From assembly GCA_947372535.1 (NCBI GenBank), contig CANBUA010000007.1:1-37814 (forward strand): a stretch of DNA of 37,814 nucleotides. Reading direction: 5' to 3'. A model generated the notes under the pieces. That model was not told the DNA's origin. It saw only the letters and a program-made list of their open reading frames with translations, and ran no database searches. Origin of the DNA: Burkholderiales bacterium (lineage in GTDB: Bacteria; Pseudomonadota; Gammaproteobacteria; Burkholderiales; Burkholderiaceae). The position numbers were made by a program, and so were the translations under genes. Positions 6,936 to 19,071 of the stretch are shown here, one piece after another. The first letter of the stretch is position 1. Every line of letters begins with the position of its first letter.

Positions 6936-7409
6936 TTACGAAGCGTGCACGACCAGCATGTTGTTGACCTTGCCCACGCCGCTCATGGCCTTGACCAGAT
7001 CGGTGGCGCGCAGCACGGCTTGAGCCGTGGGGGCTTCACCCGTGAGGGTGACCACGCCGTTCTGGGTGTCCACATTGATTTTGCTCGACTTCAGTTCTGA
7101 GTCGGCGATCAGGCCAGCGGTGACCTTGGCCGTGATGGTCGCATCGGTCACGTTGGTCTCGATCTTCTGACCAGTGACCTCAGCCTTTTGCTTGCTTTCA
7201 GCGCTCATCTCGCTGGACGACTGCTTGATGTTCTCGATGCCTTCCTTGGCATTGGCCTTGGCTTCCTGGGCCGTTTGCTCGGTGGTGGCGATGGCGCTGT
7301 CCAGCTTCTGGCCGGCAGTGCGGTCGTCGTGTTTGTTGCAGCCGGCCAGGGCGGCGACGGCAATCACGAGGACGGTCAGCGGCATGCGGATGGTGTTAGT
7401 GGTATTCAT
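6936..7409 (-). CDS. BON-domain lipoprotein (OsmY-like)
   Basis: This 157-residue protein has a lipoprotein signal peptide with lipobox LAGC (Cys24), an Ala/Glu/Lys-rich helical linker (about 30-85) and one C-terminal BON domain (about 87-155; ITAKVTAGL, VDTQNGVVTLTGEAPT). BON domains occur in OsmY and related envelope proteins and are thought to bind membranes or other envelope ligands. The start at 7409 is preceded by a good AGGAG. The gene is divergent from the AsmA-family gene, and its upstream region carries the CCTACA-N17-CTGAT-N19-CTA arrangement shared with the DUF3309 and ferritin-like genes, which suggests membership of a stress regulon. The protein class is clear; its exact function is not. 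Confidence 0.88.
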   Translation of the reverse strand: MNTTNTIRMPLTVLVIAVAALAGCNKHDDRTAGQKLDSAIATTEQTAQEAKANAKEGIENIKQSSSEMSAESKQKAEVTGQKIETNVTDATITAKVTAGLIADSELKSSKINVDTQNGVVTLTGEAPTAQAVLRATDLVKAMSGVGKVNNMLVVHAS

Positions 7410-7478
7410 GGTGTCTGCTCCTGTCGAAGGTTGATGACATGGCTCGCGCTTGTCGAGCGAACCTTGATCTGTTCACAC

Positions 7479-7543
7479 CATAGAGACGCCGTGAGCTGGG
7501 CGCCATCAGGCGATGTCGCAAAGCGCTGTAGGTCAAGGCTGAC
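7479..7543 (-). promoter_or_regulatory. Candidate activator site and promoter of the BON lipoprotein gene
   Basis: On the minus strand, CCTACA begins at 7532, CTGATG lies at 7509-7504 and TCTATG at 7484-7479, giving CCTACA-N17-CTGATG-N19-TCTATG. The CCTAC half belongs to the degenerate inverted repeat GTAGG-N6-CTGAC at 7528-7543. The DUF3309 and ferritin-like promoters have the same parts at the same spacing. The -35 and -10 assignment is inference; the 19-bp spacer is long for a sigma-70 promoter, which would fit activator dependence. Nothing else of note is seen between 7410 and 7655. Confidence 0.5.
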
Positions 7544-7655
7544 GCGTCGTGTTTGTCAGAGCCTGCCTACGCATCGTTGTGACATCCGCTGATGGCTTGG
7601 ATGGGGATGACATGAGAGTCTGCACATGGGCCATTTTGAGCACAGGAGCCATGCC

Positions 7656-9677
7656 ATGCAGACCACACAAACTCTCACACGACGACGCCGCATCGCAGGA
7701 GGGTTGGGGCTCGTGGTGGTGGTCATCGTGGGCGCGGCAGTCTGGGGTGAACACGAGGGCTGGCCTTGGCTGGTGCAGCCTGCTTCGAAGTTCGTGGGCG
7801 GGGCCTTGAACCGCTCGGTCACGCTGGGCGGTGGGGAAGGCGGAAGCCGGCCGCGGATTCAGTTGTGGGGCGGTGTCTCTTTGCACGCGCCCGAGGTGAC
7901 CATCGGTGCACCCACCTGGAGTGCCGATCCGTTCACGCTCAAAGCCAAGCAGGGCGAGGTCCAACTGGCCTATGGCGACCTGTGGTCGGCCTACCGCGGT
8001 CACCCCTTGCGCATCAAGCTGTTGCAGGCCCAGGAGGCACAAGCCTTCTTGGCGCGTGAAGCCAGTGGCCGCAACTCCTGGACCTTCGGCCCCGACCGCG
8101 AAAAAGCCGACAAGCCGCCCAGCCGGGGCATCCAGTTCGGCACGCTCAATGTGGAGACTGGCCAGCTCACGTTCAATGACGCACTGCTGGACGTGAATTT
8201 TCTGGCTGAAGCGTCGGTCCACATGGGCGAACAAATGTCGGCAGCCAGTCGCGAGCCTGGCTTCAAGGCCCTGATCGTCAAGGCCAAGGGGCAGTACAAA
8301 AAATCGCCCATGGTGGCCAACCTGAACTCGTCGGCCGATGCGCCTGGTGGCTACTTCGGTGCCAAGGCCGAACCTCAGCAATGGCCGGTCATCCTGGACG
8401 TGAAGGTGGGTCAGGCCCACCTCAAGTTCAAGGGCGGCATCGACCCTTGGGGCGCCAACACCTTGCGCGGTCGTTTCTCGACCAATGGCCCTTCGCTGGC
8501 CGCTGCCGGCGAGCCTTTTGGCGTGACCTTGCCGACCACCGGGCCTTTCGACCTGAATGGCTTCCTGTCGCAAACCGGCGAGCGCACGGCCGTGGTGGTG
8601 TCGCAGGCTTCCTTGGGCACCAGCCGCCTGGGTGGTGAATTCATCTACGACCGCAGCGGCGACAAGCCCTTGCTGGCGGGGCGCCTCCGAGGTTCACGCC
8701 TGGCCTTGGCCGACCTGGGGCCCGCGATCGGTGTGCCTGAAGAAAAGCCAAAGGCCGGGCCGGGCGACCGTGTGTTGCCGGATCGAAGCTTCGACTTGCC
8801 CTCGCTGGCGGCCATGAATGCCAATGTTGTGATCGACATTGGCCTGTTCGATGTGGGCAAAGGATTCCTCAAGCCCCTGGCGCCTTTGAAGGGGCATCTG
8901 GTGCTCAAGGATGCCTTGTTGTCGATCACCGATCTGTCGGCCAGTACGGCCGGCGGTCAGGTCATGGGCAAGCTCTCTCTGGACGGCCGCAAGCAGAACA
9001 CGGCATTGTGGAAGGCCGATTTGAGCTGGAAGAACGTGCAGCTCGATGATTGGATTCCCGCGCTGCGTCCAGCCGGTCGCGTGCCTTATGCGACAGGCCA
9101 GGTCGATGGTCGGGTGGTGGTGGCAGGTCAGGGCAAGTCCACGGCGGCCATCCTGGGTTCGCTCGATGGCACGATTCAGGCGCGTCTGCGCGATGGCACG
9201 CTGTCGCACCTGGGCGTGGAGCTGGCAGGCGTTGACCTGGCGCAAGGCCTGGGCATTCTGCTCAAGGGTGACGAGGTGTTGCCCGTGCCTTGTGGCCGCG
9301 CCGATGTGGTCGCCAAGAATGGCGTGCTCAAGCCTGATCTGTTCCTGTTGACGACGCGCGATTCCACCGTTTGGGCCGAAGGCACGGTCTCGCTGGTGGA
9401 TGAAAAGCTGGCCTTGCAGGCCAAGGTCGCACCCAAGGACTTCTCTCTGTTGACCTTACGTACGCCCATTCAGGTGACCGGCACGCTGGGCGAGCCTCAC
9501 GTGTCCATCGAGGTCGGCAAGCTGTTGCCGCGTGTGGCTGGTGCGATCGCACTGGGGGCCTTGATGCCTGTGGCGGCCATCGTGCCTTTCATCGACACAG
9601 GCAATAAGGAACTGGCGCGAAAGGGCGATGAGCTGTGCCGTCAGGAGCAGTTGAACCTGTTGCCCAAGCGCTCTTGA
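7656..9677 (+). CDS. AsmA-family envelope protein
   Basis: This protein of about 673 residues has a single N-terminal membrane anchor (about residues 12-32 after a basic RRRR) and a long periplasmic part with the repetitive beta-strand pattern of AsmA/YhdP/TamB-like proteins. The C-terminal part carries the recognisable AsmA-type segment (GRVPYATGQVDGRVVVAGQG, then the LDGTIQARLRDGTLSHLGVEL region). Family members are inner-membrane-anchored bridges implicated in phospholipid transport to the outer membrane. I chose the ATG at 7656 because AGGAG at 7644-7648 lies 7 bases upstream; an in-frame ATG at 7626 has no such site. The gene converges on an MCE-type lipid-transport operon, a suggestive neighbourhood. 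Confidence 0.85.
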   Translation: MQTTQTLTRRRRIAGGLGLVVVVIVGAAVWGEHEGWPWLVQPASKFVGGALNRSVTLGGGEGGSRPRIQLWGGVSLHAPEVTIGAPTWSADPFTLKAKQGEVQLAYGDLWSAYRGHPLRIKLLQAQEAQAFLAREASGRNSWTFGPDREKADKPPSRGIQFGTLNVETGQLTFNDALLDVNFLAEASVHMGEQMSAASREPGFKALIVKAKGQYKKSPMVANLNSSADAPGGYFGAKAEPQQWPVILDVKVGQAHLKFKGGIDPWGANTLRGRFSTNGPSLAAAGEPFGVTLPTTGPFDLNGFLSQTGERTAVVVSQASLGTSRLGGEFIYDRSGDKPLLAGRLRGSRLALADLGPAIGVPEEKPKAGPGDRVLPDRSFDLPSLAAMNANVVIDIGLFDVGKGFLKPLAPLKGHLVLKDALLSITDLSASTAGGQVMGKLSLDGRKQNTALWKADLSWKNVQLDDWIPALRPAGRVPYATGQVDGRVVVAGQGKSTAAILGSLDGTIQARLRDGTLSHLGVELAGVDLAQGLGILLKGDEVLPVPCGRADVVAKNGVLKPDLFLLTTRDSTVWAEGTVSLVDEKLALQAKVAPKDFSLLTLRTPIQVTGTLGEPHVSIEVGKLLPRVAGAIALGALMPVAAIVPFIDTGNKELARKGDELCRQEQLNLLPKRS

Positions 9678-9738
9678 GGTGCAGGCCTCGCCGGCCAAGT
9701 GGCTGGCGATGTATCGCTGCTGCGCTGTCAAGCTCAGG

Positions 9739-10371
9739 TCAAGGGCGCTGCTGAACCTGTTGAGCAATGGCATCGGCCAGCAGTCCCACCATGCTGGCTG
9801 TGGCCTGCACCTGGGCTGCCGGCGCATCGGCCAGGTTGGAGATGCTCGTCAGTGGCCGCGTCTGATGCGAGATGATCACGCCGTTGGCGGACATCAGCGT
9901 CGATTGTGCCCACGCTGTCAGCTTCCCGCCGTCCAGCTTGAAATCCATGGGTGACAAGGTCACCAGCAAACGCACAGGTCGGTTGTCGATGTCGCCGCAG
10001 ACTTGGGTGCAGAGTTGCCAGGGTTGGGGCAGGCGTTGAGCCAACTCCACCATCAGGCTGCGGGTCAGGCCGATTTCAATGCGCTCGGCCCAGACCACAC
10101 CGTCCCAGGTGGCGATTTGGTCCTGCGCATCGCGGTAACGAAGGGAGCGGGCCTGCCAATACTCCGGCAAATCGACTCGGCCGATCTGAAGCCAGCGAAC
10201 CGACGGCGCCGATGGGGCACTGCTGGCGCTGGGTGCCACAGTGGCGGCCACGGTTGGCAGGGCCGGCGTGGGCAAGGCCATCAGGCGTTGCGGCGGGGCC
10301 TTGGAGGCACAGGCACTCAACAAAAGAAGTGTCGCGGCGGCCATCGCCAGGCGGGAGGTGGGCTGGGTCAT
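9739..10371 (-). CDS. ABC-type transport auxiliary lipoprotein (PqiC-like)
   Basis: This lipoprotein of about 210 residues has lipobox LLSAC (Cys21) followed by a Pro/Ala/Ser-rich linker. The body matches the PqiC/ABC-transport auxiliary lipoprotein family (VDLPEYWQARSLRYR, then WAERIEIGLTRSLMVELAQRL). Such proteins sit in the outer membrane and partner with MCE proteins. It is the last gene of the mlaE-mlaF-mlaD-like operon, 28 bp after the MCE gene. Two in-frame ATGs compete: the one at 10380 abuts the AGAGG Shine-Dalgarno sequence, while the one at 10371 lies 9 bases from it, so I prefer 10371. A longer open frame upstream overlaps the MCE gene and is discounted. Confidence 0.85.
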   Translation of the reverse strand: MTQPTSRLAMAAATLLLLSACASKAPPQRLMALPTPALPTVAATVAPSASSAPSAPSVRWLQIGRVDLPEYWQARSLRYRDAQDQIATWDGVVWAERIEIGLTRSLMVELAQRLPQPWQLCTQVCGDIDNRPVRLLVTLSPMDFKLDGGKLTAWAQSTLMSANGVIISHQTRPLTSISNLADAPAAQVQATASMVGLLADAIAQQVQQRP

Positions 10372-10399
10372 GATGGTCATCCTCTGAGGTCTCTCTTGA

Positions 10400-11368
10400 T
10401 CACTGTTTGCCAAAGAGCAGGGCATTGGGTTGGCGCTCCAGCAACTCGGAGACCTCGCGCAGGCTGCGCGCGGTCTGCGCCAAGTCGCGCACAGCGCCTT
10501 GCAAGTCTTCGCGGGCACCGCTACCTGGCGCGGTCATGTCGGCCAGCGACTGGAAGCCCAGGTCGGCCGAGCGTGCGGCTTGACGTGTCGAGGCCAGGGT
10601 GGCTTCGAGGTCAGGCTGCAGCCGGATGATCGCGTTCTGCGTGGTGGTCGACAAGGTGGTGATGGCTTGCAGGCCCACCCCTGCCTGTTGGCCCACGGTG
10701 GCGATGGTGCGGTCGGTGTGCTGCATCAGTTCGCGCGCGACTTGGCTGGTCTGGTTGAAATCGGCGCCGACCTTGATGATGGCTTGTTGTGCGGCTGCGG
10801 CGGTGCCGTTGACGGCGTTCAAGGTCTTGCGCAGATCCTCCACCGTTTCCTTCAAGGGCAAGTCGCTCAATTGCGCGACCAAGTCATCAAACTGGCCTTT
10901 GATGACCGGGATCTCGACCTGCGTGTTCGAGGCCTGTTGCAGCACTGGTGGGGGCCCGGCCCGCTTGACGAAATCCAGGTCGATCAGGGCTTGGCCGGTG
11001 ACCAGGCTTTGCTGCGCCAGGCGGGCGCTGAGGCCACGTTGCACCAGGCTGGCCAGGGCCTCGGCGGCGGTGCTGACCTTGCCATCCGGGCTGAACATCT
11101 TGGGGGCCAGCGAGATCTGCACAGGCACGCGGGTCACCAGGGTCTGCTGGTTGAGCTCCAGGCCGATGGCATCGACCTGACCGACCGGCACGCCCCGGAA
11201 GGTGACGGGCGCGCCGATGTACAGGCCTTTGACGCTGCCATTGAAATGCACCACGGCCTGGATGCGTTTGTCGAACAGTTTGTGGCCGCCGAGCGAGCTG
11301 ATGATCAGCGCGGCCAGGACCAGGCCCGTCACGACGAACAGGCCGATCAGAAGGGCGGATCGTTTCAT
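10400..11368 (-). CDS. MCE/MlaD-family lipid-transport substrate-binding protein
   Basis: This 322-residue protein has an N-terminal membrane anchor (about 7-25) and one MCE domain (about 38-115; VHFNGSVKGLYIGAPVTFRGVPVGQV), followed by a long helical region rich in Ala and Gln. MCE proteins form hexameric rings that carry phospholipids or other hydrophobic molecules between the membranes. The C-terminal ELLERQPNALLFGK signature is common in orphan MlaD-like proteins of betaproteobacteria. The start overlaps the stop of the upstream ATPase gene in an ATGA, implying translational coupling. The transported substrate cannot be read from the sequence. No MlaC or MlaB is encoded beside it, so it is not the canonical Mla set. 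Confidence 0.92.
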   Translation of the reverse strand: MKRSALLIGLFVVTGLVLAALIISSLGGHKLFDKRIQAVVHFNGSVKGLYIGAPVTFRGVPVGQVDAIGLELNQQTLVTRVPVQISLAPKMFSPDGKVSTAAEALASLVQRGLSARLAQQSLVTGQALIDLDFVKRAGPPPVLQQASNTQVEIPVIKGQFDDLVAQLSDLPLKETVEDLRKTLNAVNGTAAAAQQAIIKVGADFNQTSQVARELMQHTDRTIATVGQQAGVGLQAITTLSTTTQNAIIRLQPDLEATLASTRQAARSADLGFQSLADMTAPGSGAREDLQGAVRDLAQTARSLREVSELLERQPNALLFGKQ

Positions 11369-12162
11369 GCGGGGGGCTCCTGCCGGTTGAGGAATGCTTT
11401 GACGAAGGGGTGGGTGTCGGGCGCGTCTTTCAGGGCCTTTGGCGAGCCGCGCGCGATGGGTTGTTTGTCCTGGGCATCGAGGAAGATGCCGTCGTCGGCG
11501 ATGCTGAGCAGGCTCTCGAGCTCGTGGCTGACCATGAGCACGGCCGCGCCCGTGCGCTCGCGGATGTCCAGGATCAACTCATCGAGCCGCAAGGCGTTGA
11601 TGGGGTCCAGGCCGGCGGAGGGCTCGTCCAGGAACAACAGCCCGGGATTGCCTGCCAGCGCGCGGGCCAAAGCCGCGCGCTTTTTCATGCCGCCGCTCAG
11701 GGCCGATGGGTAGACCTCGGCGGCGTCCAGCATGTCCACCCACGAGAGCAGTTCAAGGGCTTTGTCGCGGCGTTCGCTGGCTGACATTTCGGGTGACTTG
11801 AGCTCCAGTGGCACGATGACGTTGTCCAGCACGCTCATGGAGGTCCACAGGGCGCCGCCTTGAAAGAGCATGCCGAAGTTCTGGCGGATCTGCTGCTGTT
11901 GGGCGGCCTCTTGCTGCCAGTAGTCCTGACCCTTGATGAGCACCTCGCCCGCAGCCGGTTTGATGAGGCCCACCAGGTGCTTGAGCAGGGTGCTTTTGCC
12001 GCAGCCGCTGCCGCCCATGATGGCGAAGATGCAGCCCTTGGGTACTTCGAAATTCACATTCTGCTGGATGAGCTTGTCACCAAACTGCATCTTGAGCGAA
12101 CGCACCGCCAGCAAGGTGGCGCCGTCGTCCGGCGTGTTCGATGGGGTATTGATGCTCGTCAT
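11365..12162 (-). CDS. MlaF-like ABC transporter ATP-binding protein
   Basis: This 265-residue ABC ATPase has Walker A GGSGCGKS (50-57), the signature LSGGMKKRAALARAL and Walker B LLFLDEPSAGLDP. The LSGGM form of the signature is typical of MlaF/Ttg2A-type ATPases, which energise MCE lipid transporters with an MlaE-type permease. The ATG at 12162 overlaps the TGA of the permease gene in ATGA, and the TGA of this gene overlaps the MCE gene start likewise, so the three are translationally coupled. An in-frame ATG at 12186 lies inside the permease gene and is less likely. Confidence 0.94.
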   Translation of the reverse strand: MTSINTPSNTPDDGATLLAVRSLKMQFGDKLIQQNVNFEVPKGCIFAIMGGSGCGKSTLLKHLVGLIKPAAGEVLIKGQDYWQQEAAQQQQIRQNFGMLFQGGALWTSMSVLDNVIVPLELKSPEMSASERRDKALELLSWVDMLDAAEVYPSALSGGMKKRAALARALAGNPGLLFLDEPSAGLDPINALRLDELILDIRERTGAAVLMVSHELESLLSIADDGIFLDAQDKQPIARGSPKALKDAPDTHPFVKAFLNRQEPPA

Positions 12163-12977
12163 CAGATGCCCAGCGAGTTGGCGCACACGGCAAACAACGC
12201 ATCCAGCGCGATCACGCCGACGATGCCGGTGACGACGGCCTTAGTGGTGGCCTTGCCCACGCCGGCGGCGTCTCGGCTGGCGTTCAGGCCGGTGTAGCAG
12301 GCGCCCATGCTGATGAGGGCGCCGAAGAAAATCGTCTTGGTCAGGCCCAGCATCACGAAGCTCAAGGGGCTGGCCATGAGCACGCGCTCCACATAGGCCG
12401 CTGCGTTGATGTCCAGCATCAAGGCCGCCACGACCAAGCCACCCAGCAAGCTGGCCACGCAACCGTAGATGTAGAGCAGCGGCATCATCACCACCAGGGC
12501 CAGGATGCGCGGCAACACGAGGTAGGCCAGCGGGTCGATGCCCAGCACGCGCAAGGCGTCGATCTCTTCCTCGGCCTGCATGGTAGCCAGCTCGGCGGCG
12601 AAGGCCGACGCGGTGCGGCCCGCGACCACAACGGCCGTGATCACGGCGGCCATCTCGCGGGTGACGGCGATGCTGACCAGATCGGCCACATAAATGCCTG
12701 CCCCGAACTTGACCAGTTGAACGGCGCCGACAAAGGCCAGGATGGCACCGACCAGGGCATTGACGATGGCCACGATGACCAGTGAGCGTGCGCCGCTTTC
12801 TGCGATGACGCGGACCAGGTCTTGACGGCGCACCTGCCAGTGCGTGGTGGCGCGGACCGTGGTCAGAACGACCTCGCCCAGGAAGGTCACTGGCCCGAGC
12901 CAGCCTGTGCTCCAGGCTTTCAGCGCGCGCCAGTGCCCGGTGGCGGCGGGGCGAACCTTGGTAGGCACTGGCGTCAT
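12162..12977 (-). CDS. MlaE-family ABC transporter permease
   Basis: This protein of about 271 residues has the MlaE permease domain: an N-terminal amphipathic region (LGPVTFLGEVVLTTVRA), the membrane segment with VAIVNALVGAILAFVGAVQL, the coupling region AELATMQAEEEIDALRVLGIDP, and C-terminal membrane helices. It is the first gene of the four-gene lipid-transport operon. The frame is open to 13118, with in-frame ATGs at 13019, 13010 and 12977. None has a strong Shine-Dalgarno site; 12977 gives a length close to other MlaE proteins, so the start is uncertain. The stretch between this start and the regulator gene at 13140 is expected to hold the operon promoter, but I see no convincing boxes. 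Confidence 0.9.
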   Translation of the reverse strand: MTPVPTKVRPAATGHWRALKAWSTGWLGPVTFLGEVVLTTVRATTHWQVRRQDLVRVIAESGARSLVIVAIVNALVGAILAFVGAVQLVKFGAGIYVADLVSIAVTREMAAVITAVVVAGRTASAFAAELATMQAEEEIDALRVLGIDPLAYLVLPRILALVVMMPLLYIYGCVASLLGGLVVAALMLDINAAAYVERVLMASPLSFVMLGLTKTIFFGALISMGACYTGLNASRDAAGVGKATTKAVVTGIVGVIALDALFAVCANSLGI

Positions 12978-13139
12978 GCGAATTGGGGGTCCAGGTGAAT
13001 CAAAGGGCATCGCAGGCATGGTGATCGACCATGACGCAACTTTGTCCTGCACTGTAGAAGTTGCCCAGGGCTTTGTCTGTAGTACGCGGGCGAAACTGCT
13101 GTCAGCCTTTGCCGACAAACGGCATGGAGCCGCGCTGAT

Positions 13140-14090
13140 TCAGGTGACATGGACGCTGTCGTCCGGTGCCTGACGCGTTCCCTGGCGCCAGCTTGAGGGC
13201 GACTGGCCATACTCACGCTTGAAGGCTTGGCTGAATGCGGCCTCCGAGGCATAACCCACGGCATCCGCCACCCGGCTGACAGGCGCCGTCGAGTTGGCCA
13301 GTTGTCGGGCGGCCAGGCGCATGCGGTGGCGTGTCAGGTAAGTCAGGGGCGGTTCACCGAGCGCTTGCGTGAAACGGTCGGCAAAAGCCGAGCGCGACAA
13401 GCAGGCCTGCTGGGCCAGTTCGGGCACCGTCCAGTTGTGGGCGGGCCGGCTGTGCATGGCACTCAGGGCGCTGGACAAAGCTCGGTCTTTGAGGGCTGAC
13501 AGCCAACTGCCCGAGCCTTCGGGCAGGGACGCGACATGGTCGCGCAAGCATTCCATGAAGAGGATGTCGCCCAGCCGGTTGACGATGGCTTGCTGGCCTG
13601 GGCGTGGGGCAGTGATTTCCTGCGCCAGGAATTGCAGGCCGATGCCCAACCAGGGCGGAGGCGCTTCGCCCAGACCGCGGATGTGCATCAAGGGCGGCAA
13701 GGCCTGAACCAATGGCGCGGCCATGTGCACGTCGAATCGAGCATGACCGCTGACCATGCTGGCCTTGGTGCCGCCACGACCCACCAGCAAAGGCGTCATG
13801 TCACGCTGCTTGAGGTGCGGGCCCAGGTCGAACAGGGATTCGATGTCGGCCGCCAGCGTGTCTTGCACCGTGTGTGCCTGCCCTGCTGGCAGCACGACCA
13901 AGTCGCCAGTCTGCAGGCAAAGAGGTTGGTGGCCTTCGCGCAGCAGCCATCCTTGGCCTTCGGTCATGACATGGAAGGCCGCCAGGCCTGGTGTCTTGAG
14001 ATGCACGGCCCACGGCGCGCCAAGTTCGGTCGCCACGAAGACCACGCCGTCAAAGCGCATGTCGTCGATGATGAGGCTCAGAGGGTCCAT
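13140..14090 (-). CDS. AraC-family transcriptional regulator
   Basis: This regulator of about 316 residues has an N-terminal cupin-like effector domain (MRFDGVVFVATELGAPWAVHL, then FHVMTEGQGWLLREG and GDLVVLPAGQAHT) and a C-terminal double helix-turn-helix of AraC type (WTVPELAQQACLSRSAFADRF, then RVADAVGYASEAAFSQAFKREYGQSPSSWR). The architecture matches the cupin_6/AraC subfamily, whose members often respond to small organic ligands or oxidative stress. It lies immediately upstream of, and in the same direction as, the lipid-transport operon, so it could regulate that operon, but nothing in the sequence proves it. The ATG at 14090 (MDPLSL) fits the family start better than the ATG at 14123. 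Confidence 0.9.
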   Translation of the reverse strand: MDPLSLIIDDMRFDGVVFVATELGAPWAVHLKTPGLAAFHVMTEGQGWLLREGHQPLCLQTGDLVVLPAGQAHTVQDTLAADIESLFDLGPHLKQRDMTPLLVGRGGTKASMVSGHARFDVHMAAPLVQALPPLMHIRGLGEAPPPWLGIGLQFLAQEITAPRPGQQAIVNRLGDILFMECLRDHVASLPEGSGSWLSALKDRALSSALSAMHSRPAHNWTVPELAQQACLSRSAFADRFTQALGEPPLTYLTRHRMRLAARQLANSTAPVSRVADAVGYASEAAFSQAFKREYGQSPSSWRQGTRQAPDDSVHVT

Positions 14091-14170
14091 GGTTGACGAG
14101 CATGCCACGAAACAAGGCCCCATCCCGCTCAGCGGTGATGGGGCCTGAGGTGGGCAGGACGCTCAGTGGA

Positions 14171-14326
14171 TCAGATTCGACCCATCAGCATCAGCACGAT
14201 GATGATCAACACGACCAGGCCAAGCCCGCCGCTGGGACCATAGCCCCAGCCGCGGCTGTGAGGCCATGCGGGCACGCTTCCCAGGAGGGCAAGTACCAGA
14301 ACAACGAGCAAGATGGTGGTCAACAT
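14171..14326 (-). CDS. DUF3309 small membrane protein
   Basis: This 51-residue protein is very short and easily missed. It starts MLTTILLVVLVLALLGSVPA, has a central WPHSRGWGYGPSGGLG and ends in a second hydrophobic stretch LVVLIIIVLMLMGRI. This hairpin of two hydrophobic segments around a WPHSRxWGYGPSGG core is the DUF3309 family pattern, of unknown function and frequent in stress gene clusters of proteobacteria. An AAGGA lies 9 bases before the ATG. The upstream region shares a conserved promoter arrangement with the BON lipoprotein gene at almost the same distance from the start codon (93 versus 92 bp from the inner edge of the shared block). Confidence 0.88.
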   Translation of the reverse strand: MLTTILLVVLVLALLGSVPAWPHSRGWGYGPSGGLGLVVLIIIVLMLMGRI

Positions 14327-14396
14327 GGCAGTGATCCTTTCGATTGGCTCTGTCGGGGGGTGATGCCAGGAGTGGCGATCGACAGCATGGACTCAG

Positions 14397-14461
14397 GTTA
14401 GGTCCGCATGTGCTGAACCGCCATCAGCCAAATGCGCCAAGCGCTGTAGGGCCTGGCCGAC
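14397..14461 (-). promoter_or_regulatory. Candidate activator site and promoter of the DUF3309 gene
   Basis: On the minus strand, CCTACA begins at 14450, CTGATG is at 14427-14422 and CCTAAC at 14402-14397, the same spacing as upstream of the BON lipoprotein. The inverted repeat GTAGG-N6-CCGAC occupies 14446-14461 with one mismatch in the second half. Over the 32 bases 14419-14450 the region aligns without gaps to 7501-7532, with identical runs of 12 (CCTACAGCGCTT) and 9 (CTGATGGCG). The 308-base gap between the two divergent genes (14327-14633) otherwise holds only the site at 14475-14490. Confidence 0.55.
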
Positions 14462-14474
14462 ATTCGCAAGCCCG

Positions 14475-14513
14475 GGCAGTCATGTCCTACAGGCGAGTCA
14501 GACGATGCTGACA
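14475..14513 (+). promoter_or_regulatory. Possible second activator site, facing the CX10C-repeat protein gene
   Basis: TCCTACA at 14485-14491 is followed after 16 bases by CTGACA at 14508-14513, resembling the CCTACA-N17-CTGAT arrangement seen at three other promoters but one base shorter. The left half of the inverted repeat is poorly conserved (GGCAG) and no clear -10 hexamer follows at the expected place. It is a weaker candidate than the neighbouring site at 14446-14461. Confidence 0.3.
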
Positions 14514-14633
14514 AACCCTTGCGCCCTTGGCCGATGTCATCTTGCAGGCCTCGCGGCAACACTGTTGGTCATCAGAGGCAGTGATTGCCCTGAAATCATT
14601 GTCACTCGACACGAACACCACTGGAGAACAACC

Positions 14634-15197
14634 ATGCAAAGCACCACTCAGACCCCCCGCTTTTTCGCCAAGTCCCTGCTGGCCCTCGGCATCATGGGCG
14701 CTGCCCTGGCTGCCAACGCCGCCCCGCTGAGCAAAGAAGAATACAAGGTCGCCAAAGACCAGGCCGAAGCCAAGTACGACGCTGCCAAGGCTGCCTGCAA
14801 GCCCATGACCGGCAATGCCGCCGACGTGTGCAAGGCCCAGGCCAAGCTGGAACGCACCAACACCGTGGCTGTGGCTGAAGCCCGCTACAAGAACACGCCC
14901 AAGGCTGCCTACTCGGCCCGCGTGGACATCGCCGAAGCCAAGTACGACCTGGCGAAGGAAAAGTGCGATGACCTGACCGACAACACCAAGGACGTCTGCC
15001 GCAAGGAAGCCAAGGCTGCCTACGTGACCGCCAAGTCCGACGCCAAGGTCGCTCTGAAGACCAACAAGGCCATCGAAGAAGCCGCCGAAGACCAGACTGA
15101 TGCCAACTACGCTGCGGCCAAGGAGCGTTGCGACGCCCTGCGCGGTGCCGACAAGGACACCTGCCAGGCCAAGGCCAAGGTTGACTTCGGCAAGTAA
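14634..15197 (+). CDS. Secreted protein with three CX10C repeats, function unknown
   Basis: This 187-residue protein has a signal peptide ending at ANAA (about residue 30). The mature part is very rich in Ala, Lys, Asp and Glu and contains three copies of a roughly 28-residue unit of the form A-E-A-K-Y-D-x-A-K-x-x-C-x10-C-x-x-x-A-K, about 56 residues apart. Each has two cysteines exactly ten residues apart, so three disulfide-closed helical hairpins are likely in the periplasm. I do not recognise a characterised family, though similar proteins in betaproteobacteria are often given vague TolA-like names because of composition. The ATG at 14634 has GGAG 7 bases upstream; longer in-frame starts lack a signal peptide at the N-terminus. 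A strong terminator follows at 15220. Confidence 0.85.
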   Translation: MQSTTQTPRFFAKSLLALGIMGAALAANAAPLSKEEYKVAKDQAEAKYDAAKAACKPMTGNAADVCKAQAKLERTNTVAVAEARYKNTPKAAYSARVDIAEAKYDLAKEKCDDLTDNTKDVCRKEAKAAYVTAKSDAKVALKTNKAIEEAAEDQTDANYAAAKERCDALRGADKDTCQAKAKVDFGK

Positions 15198-15219
15198 TCT
15201 GAAACGATTGCTGGCAAGC

Positions 15220-15247
15220 AAAGGCCGCCTACTTGGGCGGCCTTTTT
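15220..15247. terminator. Rho-independent terminator, possibly bidirectional
   Basis: AAAGGCCGCC pairs with GGCGGCCTTT around a six-base loop, followed by more T, giving a ten-base-pair stem. It ends the CX10C-repeat gene and, read on the other strand, lies just beyond the stop of the convergent response regulator gene at 15273. Confidence 0.85.
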
Positions 15248-15272
15248 CATGGTCGGGTGCTGACCCGCGAGT

Positions 15273-15905
15273 TCACTGGATCAGGCCATTCTTAAGCGCG
15301 TAGTAAGTCAGGTTGCTGTTGGACTCCAGCTGCATCTTCTCCATCACCCGGGTCCGGTAGGTGGACACGGTCTTGACGCTCAGCGCCATGGTGTCGGCGA
15401 TGTGACCGATGGTCTCGCCGTTGGCCAGTCGCATGAACACCTGGAACTCGCGCTCGGAGAGTTGTTCGTGCAGCGGTTTGTCCTGGCTGCCGCCCAGGCC
15501 GTCAGCCAAGCGCTCGGCCATGCTGGCGGTGATGTAACGGCGGCCCAGTGCCACGGTGCGGATGGCCTTGACGATCTCATCCGGGTCGGTGTCCTTGCGC
15601 AGATAGCCTGAGGCGCCTTGCTTGAGCAAAGTCGTGGCGTAGTGCTCCTCCGGGAAACTGCTTAGGATCAATACCGGCAATTGGGGTGCCCGCGCCTTGA
15701 TGGCGGCCAAAGCATCTACCCCGCTGTGGTCGGGCATCGAGATGTCAAGCAAAATGACATCGGCCAGTTCTTGGCGCACGATGTCCAGCGCCTCTCGGCC
15801 ATTGCTGGCTTCTGCCACCACACGCAAATCCACATGGTCGGACAAAAACTGCTTGAGGCCAGCTCTCACCACCGCGTGGTCATCCACAAGTGCAACCCTG
15901 ATCAT
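15273..15905 (-). CDS. NarL/FixJ-family response regulator
   Basis: This 210-residue regulator has an N-terminal receiver domain, with acidic residues D8-D9, the phosphoacceptor D54 in VILLDISMPDHSG, and the conserved Ser and Lys in ILSSFP and YLRKDTD. A C-terminal LuxR-type helix-turn-helix follows (LSEREFQVFMRLANGETIGHIADTMALSVKTV, about 146-180). The ATG at 15905 has GGAGG 9 bases upstream; a longer frame to 16013 would run into the kinase gene. It is divergent from the sensor kinase gene with only 47 bp between start codons, so the two form a two-component pair. It is a plausible binder of the GTAGG-N6-CCTAC repeats found around the module, since NarL-family dimers bind such symmetric half-sites; this is inference. 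Confidence 0.93.
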   Translation of the reverse strand: MIRVALVDDHAVVRAGLKQFLSDHVDLRVVAEASNGREALDIVRQELADVILLDISMPDHSGVDALAAIKARAPQLPVLILSSFPEEHYATTLLKQGASGYLRKDTDPDEIVKAIRTVALGRRYITASMAERLADGLGGSQDKPLHEQLSEREFQVFMRLANGETIGHIADTMALSVKTVSTYRTRVMEKMQLESNSNLTYYALKNGLIQ

Positions 15906-15952
15906 GGCTTGAGCCTCCAGACTGACGGAAGACACGATTTTAGGGACAAACG

Positions 15953-17314
15953 ATGAACATGAGTGCCACGCGCCTGAGTATGCGCAGTAAATGGTGGCTG
16001 CCGGTCGCTGCATTGGCCACTTTGGCCGTTTGCGGGCTCAATGAAGTGGCCTATCAGCAGTCGCGCCAAGCCATCGACAGCCTGAAGTCGCATGCCGATG
16101 CCACCGGGCGCATTCAGCGCCTGCTTCGCGTGGTGATCGATGCCGAGACAGGTCAGCGCGGCTACTTGTTGACCGGGCGACAGGATTACCTCAAACCCTA
16201 TGTGCATTCGGCCACCGATTCGCGCGAGCAACTGGGCTGGCTGTCTGCCTACTATCGGAAAGATCCGGAGGTGACGCAACTGGTGCGGGACATCCGCCAA
16301 GCCACTGAGACCAAGCTTTCGGAGTTGTCGACGTCGATCGTGATGTACGAACAAGGGCGCCATCAGACCTGGCATGAACTGATCATGACCGACCTGGGCA
16401 AGGAGTCCATGGAGAACGTCCGGGCGTTGAGCCAGAGGCTTCTAGCCATCGAGGCCCAGCGCTCCAGCCATGACCAGGATGCCATCAATCGCCGCCTGTT
16501 GATTGGCCGATGGGGCGTGCCCGTGGCGACCTTGTTGAGCCTGGGTGGCCTGGCCCTGTTCCTGAGGCAGAACAGCAAGTTGAGGGCCTTCGAGCGACTG
16601 CACGCGATGGAGATGAAGCAGGAGCGCGACCAGTTCGAGCACGAAGTGGTGCGGCGCACAGCAGACCTCACGCAACTGGCGCGTCATCTTCAAACGGCCA
16701 GCGAGCACGAGCGTTCGCGCTTGTCGCGGGAGTTGCATGATGAACTGGGATCGTTGATGACGGCGGCCAAGCTGGATGCCGCCCGGCTCAGGCGCTCGTT
16801 GGGCACACCCACAGCGGAGGTGGAAGACAGGCTCAAGCACCTCAACGAGGCCATCAACAATGGGATCGAGCTCAAGCGCCGCATCATTGAAGATCTGCGG
16901 CCTTCGTCCTTGAGTCACCTGGGGCTTGTGCCGGCGCTGGAGATCCAGGCGCTGGAATTTGCCAGGCGCTCCGACATCAAGGTGACGTCCCGGTTCGAGT
17001 CGGTTGCGCTGACTGAAAGCGCTCAGATCACCGTGTATCGCCTGTTCCAGGAAGCCTTGACCAACCTGGTCAAGTACGCTGGCGCCACCGAGGTGGACAT
17101 GTGTGTCCTGGCCCAAGAGGGCCGAGCCCTGGTGTCAGTGACGGACAATGGTCAAGGGTTTGACCCGGCCGTTCGCCGCGGCAGCGCCCATGGACTGATG
17201 GGCATGCGCTATCGCGTTGAAGCAGAGGGCGGTGCACTGACTGTTCGCAGCCGCCCGGGGGCAGGGACGCGCATCGAAGCTTGGATACCCTTTGCCAATC
17301 AGGTGCAGGTTTGA
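15953..17314 (+). CDS. CHASE3-type sensor histidine kinase (HisKA_3 / NarX-like)
   Basis: This 453-residue kinase has two membrane segments (about 13-30 and 186-205) flanking a periplasmic sensor region of CHASE3 type (TGRIQRLLRVVIDAETGQRGYLLTGRQDYL, 51-80). Then come a short cytoplasmic coiled coil, the HisKA_3 dimerisation motif with phospho-accepting H262 (SRELHDELG), and the HATPase domain (FQEALTNLVKYAGA; DNGQGFDP; GLMGMRYRVEAEGG). This architecture partners with NarL/FixJ regulators, matching the divergent gene. CHASE3 domains sense unknown envelope or redox stimuli. AGGGA lies 7 bases upstream of the start. A perfect 14-bp inverted repeat lies 8 bases after the stop. Confidence 0.93.
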   Translation: MNMSATRLSMRSKWWLPVAALATLAVCGLNEVAYQQSRQAIDSLKSHADATGRIQRLLRVVIDAETGQRGYLLTGRQDYLKPYVHSATDSREQLGWLSAYYRKDPEVTQLVRDIRQATETKLSELSTSIVMYEQGRHQTWHELIMTDLGKESMENVRALSQRLLAIEAQRSSHDQDAINRRLLIGRWGVPVATLLSLGGLALFLRQNSKLRAFERLHAMEMKQERDQFEHEVVRRTADLTQLARHLQTASEHERSRLSRELHDELGSLMTAAKLDAARLRRSLGTPTAEVEDRLKHLNEAINNGIELKRRIIEDLRPSSLSHLGLVPALEIQALEFARRSDIKVTSRFESVALTESAQITVYRLFQEALTNLVKYAGATEVDMCVLAQEGRALVSVTDNGQGFDPAVRRGSAHGLMGMRYRVEAEGGALTVRSRPGAGTRIEAWIPFANQVQV

Positions 17315-17398
17315 GGGGGTGGCTGGTTCTTCGGGCGGCGTGCCCCCGAAGAACCAGCGCATGGCGTCGTCCAGATCCGTGTCGTCGTCATTGAACAT
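17135..17398 (-). CDS. Possible small acidic protein overlapping the kinase gene antisense
   Basis: An 87-codon frame starts MFNDDDTDLDDAMRWFFGG and has a reasonable Shine-Dalgarno AGGGAG 8 bases before its ATG. It lies 42 bp downstream of the DUF883 gene on the same strand, as an operon partner would. Against it, its last 60 codons are antisense to the kinase 3' end, and the region outside the kinase contains a perfect inverted repeat that may be a terminator. The N-terminal 25 to 30 residues look protein-like and the rest looks like a shadow. I regard it as uncertain. Confidence 0.3.
   Translation of the reverse strand: MFNDDDTDLDDAMRWFFGGTPPEEPATPSNLHLIGKGYPSFDARPCPRAAANSQCTALCFNAIAHAHQSMGAAAANGRVKPLTIVRH
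17322..17358. terminator. Perfect 14-bp inverted repeat after the kinase gene
   Basis: GCTGGTTCTTCGGG at 17322-17335 and its exact complement at 17345-17358 are separated by nine bases. The hairpin begins 8 bases after the kinase stop codon and could end transcription from both sides, though no T-tract follows on either strand, so it may instead act as an mRNA 3' stabiliser. Confidence 0.55.
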
Positions 17399-17440
17399 GG
17401 CGCCACTCCCTATCGTGCTGACCTGTGGTTGCGACAGTGC

Positions 17441-17746
17441 TCAGTTGTTGCGGCTGCCCAGGGCGCGCACCAGCAGGGCGATGCCGGCACCGACGGCGCT
17501 GGCGATCAGCACGGACTTGATGGGCTCGTCCTTGATGTACTCCACGGTGACGTCGCGGCCACGGATGGCTTGGTCACGGGCGTCGGCCGCGATTTCGCGA
17601 ACGCGTTGCAGCCCTTGAATGCGCAACTCGTCTACCTTGCTCAGGGCTTCGCTCAGTGCAGGCTTGACGGTGTTTTCGGACACGTCATTCAGGGTGTCCT
17701 TGGCTTCGGTGGAGAAAGTCTTGAGGTTGTTGGTGGCAGCAGTCAT
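17441..17746 (-). CDS. DUF883 family membrane-anchored, ribosome-associated-type protein
   Basis: This 101-residue protein is an amphipathic helical N-terminal region followed by a C-terminal transmembrane segment (SVLIASAVGAGIALLVRALGSR). That is the DUF883 (YqjD/ElaB-like) pattern of inner-membrane proteins; in E. coli, YqjD is stationary-phase induced and associates with ribosomes. AAGGA lies 7 bases before the ATG at 17746. A second in-frame ATG at 17830 has an even better GGAGG 5 bases upstream and would add 28 residues with no family match, so a longer form is possible. A near-perfect GTAGG-N6-CCTAC repeat is at 17854-17869, upstream of both. Confidence 0.87.
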   Translation of the reverse strand: MTAATNNLKTFSTEAKDTLNDVSENTVKPALSEALSKVDELRIQGLQRVREIAADARDQAIRGRDVTVEYIKDEPIKSVLIASAVGAGIALLVRALGSRNN

Positions 17747-17853
17747 GGTGTCGTCCTTGGTTGGTGAAAAAGATGATTCATTGTGAAATCGCAGCCCAGA
17801 CGCCGCCACCAGCCAGCGCCGCGTCACCATGTCGTCCTCCGGGATGGGTGGAT

Positions 17854-17869
17854 GTAGGACAAGCCCTAC
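17854..17869. promoter_or_regulatory. Inverted repeat GTAGG-N6-CCTAC upstream of DUF883
   Basis: GTAGGACAAGCCCTAC has two perfectly complementary five-base arms six bases apart, the same geometry as the repeat at 18572-18587. It lies in the divergent region between the DUF883 and ferritin-like genes, 108 bp before the preferred DUF883 start. The CTGAT element present at three sister promoters is not found at the expected distance on the DUF883 side. Confidence 0.55.
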
Positions 17870-17891
17870 TGCCCGTCGACGGGCTCATCGA

Positions 17892-17956
17892 ATCGGCGTT
17901 GTCCTACAAGCCGGGGTGATGGGTGCTGATCCCTGGTGCATGCGCATGCTTCTAGA
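17892..17956 (+). promoter_or_regulatory. Candidate activator site and promoter of the ferritin-like gene
   Basis: TGTCCTACA ends at 17908. CCTACA (17903-17908) is followed after 17 bases by CTGATC (17926-17931) and after 19 more by TCTAGA (17951-17956), exactly the spacing found upstream of the BON lipoprotein and DUF3309 genes. The left arm of the inverted repeat is degenerate (ATCGG). The element ends 51 bases before the GTG start codon. Confidence 0.5.
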
Positions 17957-18007
17957 GTGAAGAAGTCGCCAGGCCCATCTGGCATTGATCGCTCGAAAGG
18001 ACACACC

Positions 18008-18568
18008 GTGGATCAGCACTCTCTCTCCTCTTTCGACAACGCCGCCGTGGGCGCCCTGGTGCTCAACCAGGCGGCCATCGACGAAGCCCGCCAGCACTGC
18101 ATGGAAGGTGCCGTGACGCCCAGCTCCAGCCCTTGGCGCGACCAGATCGTCAAGCTGCTCAATGACTCCCTGGCCACCGAGCTGGTCTGCGTGCTGCGCT
18201 ACAAGCGCCACCACTTCACGGCCAAGGGGCTGAGTTCGCCGGCGATTGCCAGCGAATTCCTGGTGCATGCCAATGAAGAGTCTGCCCATGCCGACCAGAT
18301 CGCCGAGCGCATCGTGCAACTGGGCGGCATGCCCGATTTTTCGCCGAACGGCCTGCTGGGTCGCAGCCATGCCGACTATGACGAATCTGAAGATCTGCAG
18401 GCGATGATCAAGTCCAACCTCGTGGCCGAGCGCGTGGCGGTTGAAACCTACCGCCAGATGATCAACCTCATCGGCGACAAGGACCCCACCACGCGGCGCA
18501 TGCTCGAAGGCATCCTCTCTGATGAAGAGGAGCATGCCGATGAGATGAAGGACTTGCTGGAGAAGTGA
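18008..18568 (+). CDS. Ferritin-like diiron protein (bacterioferritin-type)
   Basis: This 186-residue protein forms a four-helix ferritin-like bundle. All expected iron ligands are visible: E58, the E91-x-x-H94 pair in NEESAHAD, E141 in VAERVAVETY, and E173-x-x-H176 in DEEEHADEM. A likely role is iron oxidation and storage or protection from peroxide during stress. The GTG start at 18008 is chosen because AAAGGA lies 7 bases upstream and the conserved region follows; the in-frame ATG at 17936 overlaps the putative promoter. It is the first plus-strand gene after the divergent DUF883 region and is followed by an inverted repeat and the receiver gene. Confidence 0.9.
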   Translation: MDQHSLSSFDNAAVGALVLNQAAIDEARQHCMEGAVTPSSSPWRDQIVKLLNDSLATELVCVLRYKRHHFTAKGLSSPAIASEFLVHANEESAHADQIAERIVQLGGMPDFSPNGLLGRSHADYDESEDLQAMIKSNLVAERVAVETYRQMINLIGDKDPTTRRMLEGILSDEEEHADEMKDLLEK

Positions 18569-18571
18569 GGC

Positions 18572-18587
18572 GTAGGAAACTTCCTAC
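18572..18587. promoter_or_regulatory. Inverted repeat GTAGGAA-AC-TTCCTAC upstream of the receiver gene
   Basis: The seven-base arms are perfectly complementary around two central bases. It begins 4 bases after the ferritin-like stop codon and about 22 bases before a possible -35. The core TAGGAAACTTCCTA resembles the RcsAB box of enterobacteria (TAAGAATATTCCTA) at 11 of 14 positions, and RcsB is itself a NarL/FixJ-family regulator. Confidence 0.6.
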
Positions 18588-18609
18588 GACACAATGGCCT
18601 TGTCACCGC

Positions 18610-18639
18610 TTGCTCGGCGCGGCATGGCCTTGAGATACT
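18610..18639 (+). promoter_or_regulatory. Possible sigma-70 promoter of the receiver gene
   Basis: TTGCTC at 18610-18615 and GATACT at 18634-18639 are 18 bases apart, and TG one base upstream of the second hexamer makes it an extended -10. The predicted transcription start would fall at about 18646-18647, on the start codon itself. Confidence 0.35.
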
Positions 18640-18646
18640 GCATTTA

Positions 18647-19042
18647 ATGCAGACCCTCCATGCCTTCATCGTTGAAGACAGCCCCGTCATCCTGGAAAAC
18701 CTGGTGGCGACGCTGGAAGAGTTGACCCCTGTGAAGGTGGTCGGCTCGGCTGTGGACGAGGGCAGCGCGATGGACTGGCTGCGCCACAGCCGTGGCGATT
18801 GTCAGCTGGTCATCATCGACATCTTCCTCAAGACCGGCTCGGGCCTGGGCGTGCTGCGCCGCATGTCGGAGTTGGGCTTTGAGGGGCAGCGCGTGGTGCT
18901 GACCAATTACGCCACCCCGGATGTGCGCGAACGTTGCGCGAGTCTGGGGGCCAACCGCGTGTTCGACAAATCGCATGAGCTTGACGAGTTGATCAGCTAT
19001 TGCGCTGATCTGGCTGGACAGGCGCCTGCCACAGCCTGCTGA
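18647..19042 (+). CDS. Stand-alone receiver-domain response regulator
   Basis: This 131-residue protein is a single receiver domain with no output domain. It has acidic pair E10-D11, phosphoacceptor D58 in LVIIDIFLKTGSG, T86 in VVLTNYA and K108 in VFDKSHE. Such proteins act as phosphate sinks or allosteric partners of kinases. The nearby CHASE3 kinase and NarL-type regulator are its obvious candidates, but no partner is proven. There is no Shine-Dalgarno sequence before the ATG, and a promoter candidate places the transcript start at the ATG, so leaderless translation is possible. The gene is preceded by a GTAGG-type inverted repeat and followed by a GTGGG-type palindrome. Confidence 0.88.
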   Translation: MQTLHAFIVEDSPVILENLVATLEELTPVKVVGSAVDEGSAMDWLRHSRGDCQLVIIDIFLKTGSGLGVLRRMSELGFEGQRVVLTNYATPDVRERCASLGANRVFDKSHELDELISYCADLAGQAPATAC

Positions 19043-19055
19043 CGCCTGAAGCAGG

Positions 19056-19071
19056 GTGGGAAATTTCCCAC
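19056..19071. promoter_or_regulatory. Perfect 16-bp palindrome GTGGGAAATTTCCCAC
   Basis: It lies 14 bases after the receiver stop codon and 10 bases before the GGAGA of the next gene. It has the same arm geometry as the GTAGG-N6-CCTAC repeats, with one substitution per arm. It could be an operator or, in RNA, a short hairpin close to the ribosome site. Confidence 0.5.

Follow-up and report, generated by a model that had tools for sequence, protein, structure and literature searches.

What does a 16-bp inverted repeat that recurs between the genes of a bacterial two-component locus stand for, and which protein would read it? In a 37,814-bp stretch from a Burkholderiales bacterium (positions 1-37,814 of contig CANBUA010000007.1, assembly GCA_947372535.1), hereafter called the window, copies of the dyad GTAGG-N6-CCTAC surround a response regulator gene at 15273-15905, and a first, sequence-only reading had viewed them as the operators of a local NarL/FixJ-type regulon controlling envelope and iron-storage proteins. 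The motif, its positions, its phasing and its link to the regulator across genomes come directly from the computations reported below. From these, it appears quite probable that the NarL-type regulator uses the dyads as its operators, and that a system composed of a histidine kinase, this regulator and a single-domain receiver drives a general-stress-type regulon from phased dimer sites.

In the first instance, the dyad itself is real. Exact copies are present at 17854-17869 and 18572-18587, one mismatch is found at 14446-14461 and two mismatches at 7528-7543 and 17892-17907, all of them as the sequence-only reading had listed, though it overlooked the dyad at 7555-7570 in front of an AsmA-family gene. 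A further weak copy it had reported, at 14475-14490, was rejected as an operator since it misfits the promoter model (dyad 7.6, tail -8.0); 14497-14512 (dyad 8.1, tail 15.4) is a better candidate for the gene encoding a protein with C-X10-C motifs (CX10C gene). Within the window alone, the dyad is mildly enriched (13 matches when two mismatches are allowed, where 6.06 would be expected; maximum of 100 shuffles, 12), and because this is weak evidence alone, orthologous loci were brought in. Out of 61 loci with a relative of the regulator, five distant ones were dropped and 56 kept (L001-L056; regulator 69-86% identical; titles all Burkholderiales or Proteobacteria; 935 kb in total); locus counts out of 57 refer to these 56 plus the window, with genes from our own simple gene calls, which leave 13% of the sequence intergenic. 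Over the 56 loci, a spacer of 6 bp gives 24 exact copies and 122 copies with at most one mismatch, against 0-1 and 2-28, respectively, for the other spacers from 0 to 15. When the window is included, 108 of the 125 dyad sites are intergenic, and in intergenic DNA the dyad ranks first of 21,504 arm/spacer combinations (108 sites, the next having 78). Scored by a composite model, i.e., the sum of a dyad and a tail score, trained without the window, the window holds 10 matches at 10 or above (8 distinct dyads, two of them scoring on both strands and one, at 13101, with no gene ahead of it), where shuffles give 0.21 on average; at 16 or above, it holds 8 matches (7 dyads) against 0.003 expected (300 shuffles). 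Based on the spacer-6 excess, the top rank and the window score against shuffles, a chance origin was rejected.

As inverted repeats between genes, one of which (18572-18587) follows a stop codon, the dyads could also be imagined as transcription terminators or as copies of a dispersed repeat element. This is hardly credible, as conservation in the consensus, tGTAGG-N6-CCTACa, is limited to the 5-bp arms and a few flanking bases, the exact dyad has just 2 to 4 copies in each of four genomes and is rarer there than the reversed pattern, and the sites stand upstream of start codons together with a phased half-site and a -10-like element.

This last feature changes the definition of the site, since the dyad, previously taken as the whole site, is one unit of a 23-bp phased array ending beside the -10. 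With offsets counted from the dyad start and oriented towards the gene, 103 non-redundant sites display two conserved blocks beyond the dyad, one at offsets 34-38 (C, C/T, G, A, T/C) and one at 61-66 (TAnAnT). In other words, a second half-site CYGAY begins 23 bp after the first, sometimes with a third another 23 bp on, and from the first base of the last half-site it is 27 bp to that of the -10-like TAnAnT. Among 264 sites selected on the dyad only, half-sites of the form C[CT][GT]A[CT] occur at offset 34 in 75 and at offset 57 in 31, where an average offset has 3.4; two lesser peaks, at 59 and 82, overlap the -10. TAnAnT occurs at offset 61 in 27 and at offsets 84 and 38 in 7 each (mean 0.7 per offset); offsets 34/57 and 38/61/84 are spaced 23 apart. 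The two elements move together: in all 21 sites that have a half-site at 57 as well as at 34, the -10 core stands at 84, and with a half-site at 34 only, it stands at 61 in 35 of 54. Read in this manner from their letters, promoters carry one, two or three units, the DUF1328 promoters having the three-unit form (columns 57-61 and 84-89, unused in the selection) and the receiver promoters the two-unit form. Given the fixed distance from the last half-site to the -10, the proximal unit would be centred near -42 whatever the number of units.

As regards the protein that may read these arrays, the product of 15273-15905 is a NarL/FixJ-type regulator by its Response_reg (101.9 bits) and GerE (53 bits) domains, both above cut-off. 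Its gene is divergent from that of a histidine kinase, and the conserved neighbours over the 57 loci comprise the histidine kinase (53), the response regulator (53), the single-domain receiver (REC, 51), DUF1328 (40), DUF883 (36), YqjE-like (26) and BON (26) families. Most of 20 further loci, with a regulator about 65-69% identical, exhibit the same layout. Composite sites are found upstream of the genes for REC (44/51), DUF1328 (35/46), beta/gamma-crystallin-type (7/8), OpuAC-type transporter (6/10), CsbD (6/11), CX10C (6/12) and DUF883 (8/36) proteins, and of 39 of the 550 other genes; none of 60 kinase genes has one, and neither do the genes located inside the DUF1328 operon, namely those for YqjE-like proteins (0/26) and family 7 (0/19). 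The genes for the BON lipoprotein (2/10) and the ferritin-like protein (1/7) rarely have one in other loci. Hydrogenophaga (L050-L055) has a different gene order (two kinase-type genes, receiver, BON, BON lipoprotein and CsbD, then the regulator), and the sites are kept at the new promoters. Some genomes (G061, G078, G129, G151) hold two regulator copies of at least 70% identity.

Beyond the locus, the pattern GTAGGAN5CCKAC was searched in 30 genomes with a regulator 69-86% identical, 43 with one at 61-69%, and 27 without a regulator at 60% or above, with the reversed pattern as control and palindromic exact sites counted on both strands. The 27 genomes are those of at least 3.8 Mb from the 68 of 150 lacking a relative of at least 60% identity (hand count); G041, although large enough, is not included, and two genomes of doubtful ancestry, G139 and G076, were kept, of which G139 alone provides 4 of the 22 matches of this set. 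In this search of related genomes, which the sequence-only reading had proposed, motif density tracks the regulator, at 0.869 and 0.834 per Mb in the two regulator-bearing sets against 0.183 in the regulator-less one (Mann-Whitney p 1.4e-6 and 5e-7), with 2.64, 2.99 and 2.35 per Mb for the reversed pattern, respectively. Distal sites are intergenic in 65 of 74 cases in regulator-bearing genomes against 8 of 21 in regulator-less ones (Fisher p 1.2e-5), and of the 62 that have a gene downstream, 37 are at a distance of 73-108 bp from its start. The tail model, trained on the first set, gives 30 second-set loci higher scores than random positions (p 4e-5) but does not do so for the regulator-less sites (p 0.29), with 14/30 and 3/21 tails, respectively, above the null 95th percentile. 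In 24 held-out DUF1328 genomes, unused in training although some may share species with one of the 56 loci, 23 of the 24 best DUF1328 copies have an upstream composite site of at least 14, with a half-site that is mostly CCGAC, as do three of six further copies with respect to the presence of a site.

DUF1328 occurs in 24 of another 27 genomes that bear the regulator against 3 of 27 regulator-less ones, two of which (G139 and G076) have a regulator relative, of 53% and 51% identity, within about 0.4 and 2.1 kb of DUF1328. The system and its regulon are therefore inherited together, which supports a dedicated regulon. By the same token, presence alone cannot name the binder, and all 150 genomes hold NarL-type relatives (paralogues of about 43-58% identity), so that the dyad could be the operator of another co-inherited regulator, the NarL-type regulator being a bystander. 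We consider this unlikely, as such paralogues persist in the regulator-less genomes, where sites are few, the regulator is the sole protein with a DNA-binding domain among the frequent conserved neighbours, the site precedes the adjacent REC gene in most loci, and the part of the regulator helix-turn-helix expected to contact DNA is nearly invariant in 53 orthologues. The claim of a NarL-type regulon stands in that the shared sites cluster at the regulator locus, follow the regulator and occupy promoter-like positions, which makes its binding to them probable.

Several points weigh against operators of this regulator. The genomes are related, and the counts are not independent; regulator-less genomes mostly lack DUF1328, and lineage and regulator are thus partly confounded. 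The reversed pattern, too, differs between the 43-genome set and the regulator-less one, being somewhat denser in the former (p 0.019), a far smaller difference than that of the motif. No site with at most one mismatch is present in 5 of the 56 loci (L002, L007, L026, L047, L049), and in loci other than the window, a site is rarely right upstream of the BON lipoprotein and ferritin-like genes. With respect to the promoter code, 189 of the 264 sites have no exact half-site pattern at offset 34, 16 of the 30 second-set tails are at or below the null 95th percentile, and the second-set and regulator-less tails differ modestly (p 0.019). In the window, DUF883 fits only a three-unit reading, and the -10 of the receiver gene is one base off the model.

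Read with this code, the window provides separate sites for the BON, AsmA, DUF3309, CX10C, ferritin-like and receiver genes, the case of DUF883 being weaker (Table 1). Divergent pairs have one site per gene, i.e., 7528 (BON) and 7555 (AsmA), 14446 (DUF3309) and 14497 (CX10C), and 17892 (ferritin-like) and 17854 (DUF883). Together with 18572 (receiver), these make seven sites, six of which have the half-site CTGAT, CCGAT or CCGCT at precisely offset 34-38, ACGAC replacing it for DUF883. The dyad at 17854-17869 has a composite score of 11.1 on the - strand (two-unit model) and a higher one, 18.7, in the + orientation; it probably serves DUF883 in a three-unit form. For AsmA, an ATG at 7656 suits a predicted transcription start near 7628.

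Table 1. Predicted sites, promoter elements and genes of the regulon in the window (offsets from the dyad start; composite, dyad plus tail score).
Feature	Position	Strand	Evidence
BON-domain lipoprotein gene, predicted target	6936..7409	-	Pfam BON 65.4 bits
Primary dyad for BON gene, GTCAGCCTTGACCTAC read on - strand	7528..7543	-	composite 28.5 (dyad 15.4, tail 13.0)
Second half-site CTGAT for BON, offset 34-38	7505..7509	-	
-10-like TATGGT for BON, offset 61-66	7477..7482	-	
Primary dyad for AsmA, GTCAGAGCCTGCCTAC	7555..7570	+	composite 22.8
Second half-site CTGAT for AsmA, offset 34-38	7589..7593	+	
AsmA-family gene, start codon uncertain	7626..9677	+	ORF (open reading frame); Pfam AsmA 69.1 bits on 7653-9677
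DUF3309 gene, predicted target	14171..14326	-	Pfam DUF3309 80.3 bits
Primary dyad for DUF3309, GTCGGCCAGGCCCTAC read on - strand	14446..14461	-	composite 34.4, highest of the window
Second half-site CTGAT for DUF3309, offset 34-38	14423..14427	-	
-10-like TAACCT for DUF3309, offset 61-66	14395..14400	-	
Degenerate dyad for CX10C gene, GTCAGACGATGCTGAC	14497..14512	+	composite 23.5
Second half-site CCGAT for CX10C, offset 34-38	14531..14535	+	
-10-like AACACT for CX10C, offset 61-66	14558..14563	+	
CX10C gene, 187-aa protein with C-X10-C motifs, predicted target	14634..15197	+	no Pfam family; relatives in 12 loci
NarL-type response regulator, candidate binder of the sites	15273..15905	-	Pfam Response_reg and GerE; 56 orthologous loci, 69-86% identity
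CHASE3-HisKA_3-HATPase histidine kinase, divergent from regulator	15953..17314	+	Pfam domains
DUF883-like gene, proposed target	17441..17746	-	no Pfam match at 1e-3; relatives in 36 loci; weak NCBIfam match
Exact dyad, - strand candidate for DUF883 (ACGAC at offset 34, CTGGT at 57, CACAAT at 84)	17854..17869	-	
Degenerate dyad for ferritin-like gene, ATCGGCGTTGTCCTAC	17892..17907	+	composite 16.2
Second half-site CTGAT for ferritin-like, offset 34-38	17926..17930	+	
-10-like TAGAGT for ferritin-like, offset 61-66	17953..17958	+	
Ferritin-like gene, predicted target	18008..18568	+	Pfam Ferritin 102.9 bits
Exact dyad for receiver gene, GTAGGAAACTTCCTAC	18572..18587	+	composite 23.6; such a site in 44/51 loci
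Second half-site CCGCT for receiver, offset 34-38	18606..18610	+	
-10-like GATACT for receiver, one base later than model	18634..18639	+	sequence
Single-domain receiver gene (REC), predicted target	18647..19042	+	Pfam Response_reg 55.8 bits; family in 51/57 loci

Two further elements of the window stand apart. The dyad at 13101-13116, GTCAGCCTTTGCCGAC, scores 14.0 on the + strand, where CTGAT stands at offset 34-38 but no gene lies ahead; read on the - strand, it precedes the permease of an ABC/MCE-type operon and has a poor tail. Just past the receiver gene, a perfect palindrome at 19056-19071, GTGGGAAATTTCCCAC, has a composite score of 3.8 and is probably not an operator.

Regarding mechanism, we infer binding, activation, phosphorylation and receiver feedback along the following lines. 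The divergent CHASE3 kinase presumably phosphorylates the regulator, a phosphorylated dimer of which would bind the GTAGG-N6-CCTAC dyad; dimers would be stacked along the array, and the last one, centred near -42, would abut a promoter with a TAnAnT -10 but no recognisable -35 and recruit RNA polymerase. Stacking is proposed by analogy to BvgA of Bordetella because, in PMC7250471, BvgA dimers are described on head-to-head sites in a row with a two-helical-turn spacing of 22 bp, strong upstream then weak, the last abutting the -35. As such, the array may consist of BvgA-like phased dimer sites, a likeness seen at sequence level in the 23-bp steps and the fixed distance to the -10, and also in the primary site of Pfha given in the same paper, TAAGAAATTTCCTA, which matches 12 of the 14 bases of window positions 18573-18586. 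This likeness is one of promoter layout and site letters, and there are differences: the step is 23 bp and not 22, a consensus can still be read in the secondary half-sites, a promoter may have one, two or three units, and stress-type proteins make up the predicted targets. The same layout bears on the possibility that the sites are operators through which the regulator represses its genes. The sign of the effect is not given by sequence, and in one-unit promoters the dyad is directly before the -10; arrays running from about -88 to -42, ending before the -10 and without a -35 consensus, correspond on the contrary to the activator-dependent layout of BvgA promoters and make repression improbable.

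For activation by the NarL-type regulator, the regulon would consist of small stress-type proteins, i.e., BON, CsbD, DUF1328, DUF883, DUF3309, Transgly_assoc, PNPOx-like, ferritin-like, CX10C and others, plus the single-domain receiver, a probable source of feedback to the phosphorelay. Feedback on phosphate flow is suggested because the receiver retains the phosphorylation residues D58 and K108 and is itself a target, which the kinase is not. While the module genes remain predicted targets, the regulon is not only local, because distal targets occur in many relatives. Among the proteins downstream of distal sites, 50 of 67 were scanned against Pfam, 17 being excluded as partial or badly placed, and the families found were DUF4440 (5), Transgly_assoc (3), MgtC, PNPOx-like, OmpA, DUF1328 and sigma-54 activators (2 each), with single cases of PRC-barrel, KaiC, DJ-1/PfpI and crystallin, and also CsbD; for some targets, no tie to stress is apparent. 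The general-stress label comes from the roles ascribed to CsbD, BON/OsmY and similar proteins, and the envelope and iron-storage regulon first proposed survives as stress-type envelope proteins and a ferritin-like protein among the predicted targets. A family of 59-64 aa with YEAAHPAL...WPDA-like ends lies 70-102 bp downstream of distal sites (L088, L115, L148, L162, L168, L175), and small secreted-looking C-X10-C proteins are putative targets both at the regulator locus and far away (L066, L067, L113; window 14634-15197). In PMC11719878, a CsbD/DUF1328/BON gene cluster is more expressed in an antimonite-resistant Achromobacter mutant. Literature searches on these protein families with regulators or Burkholderiales returned no description of this system, and searches on the motif letters gave unrelated papers.

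With respect to other known systems, the RcsAB/RcsB box has a dyad and spacing similar to this one, and the resemblance pointed out by the sequence-only reading stands for the site but not for the protein: the nearest NCBIfam model is UvrY/SirA/GacA (NF007018, 178.6 bits, cut-off 280), whereas the RcsB model (NF008098) gives 61.3 bits against a cut-off of 235, both scores being below cut-off. As reported in PMC3171408, the GacA box, TGTAAGN6CTTACA, has the same N6 spacing and arms one base apart each (TGTAGG vs TGTAAG), and thus differs from the consensus here; unlike those of UvrY/SirA/GacA, the present sites are before protein genes in a phased array and not before csrB-type small RNA genes. 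The alphaproteobacterial general stress response, as outlined in PMC5964349, likewise has a single-domain receiver (MrrA) tied to a stress programme; its genes depend on a PhyR/NepR/EcfG partner switch together with a sigma factor, where a dyad-binding NarL-type regulator is proposed here.

More broadly, there is an even chance that a Burkholderiales family runs a general-stress-type regulon by a kinase, NarL-type regulator and single-receiver system and not by a sigma factor, with a modular array of one to three 23-bp units upstream of the -10, where the number of units and the quality of half-sites would set promoter strength. Such a transcription-factor-run stress regulon would join the sigma-factor-run ones. 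It would place under a single regulator many small stress proteins whose function is unknown, and provide a readable promoter code for a widespread, hardly studied two-component system, whose natural series of one-, two- and three-unit promoters suits the study of regulator dimer stacking.

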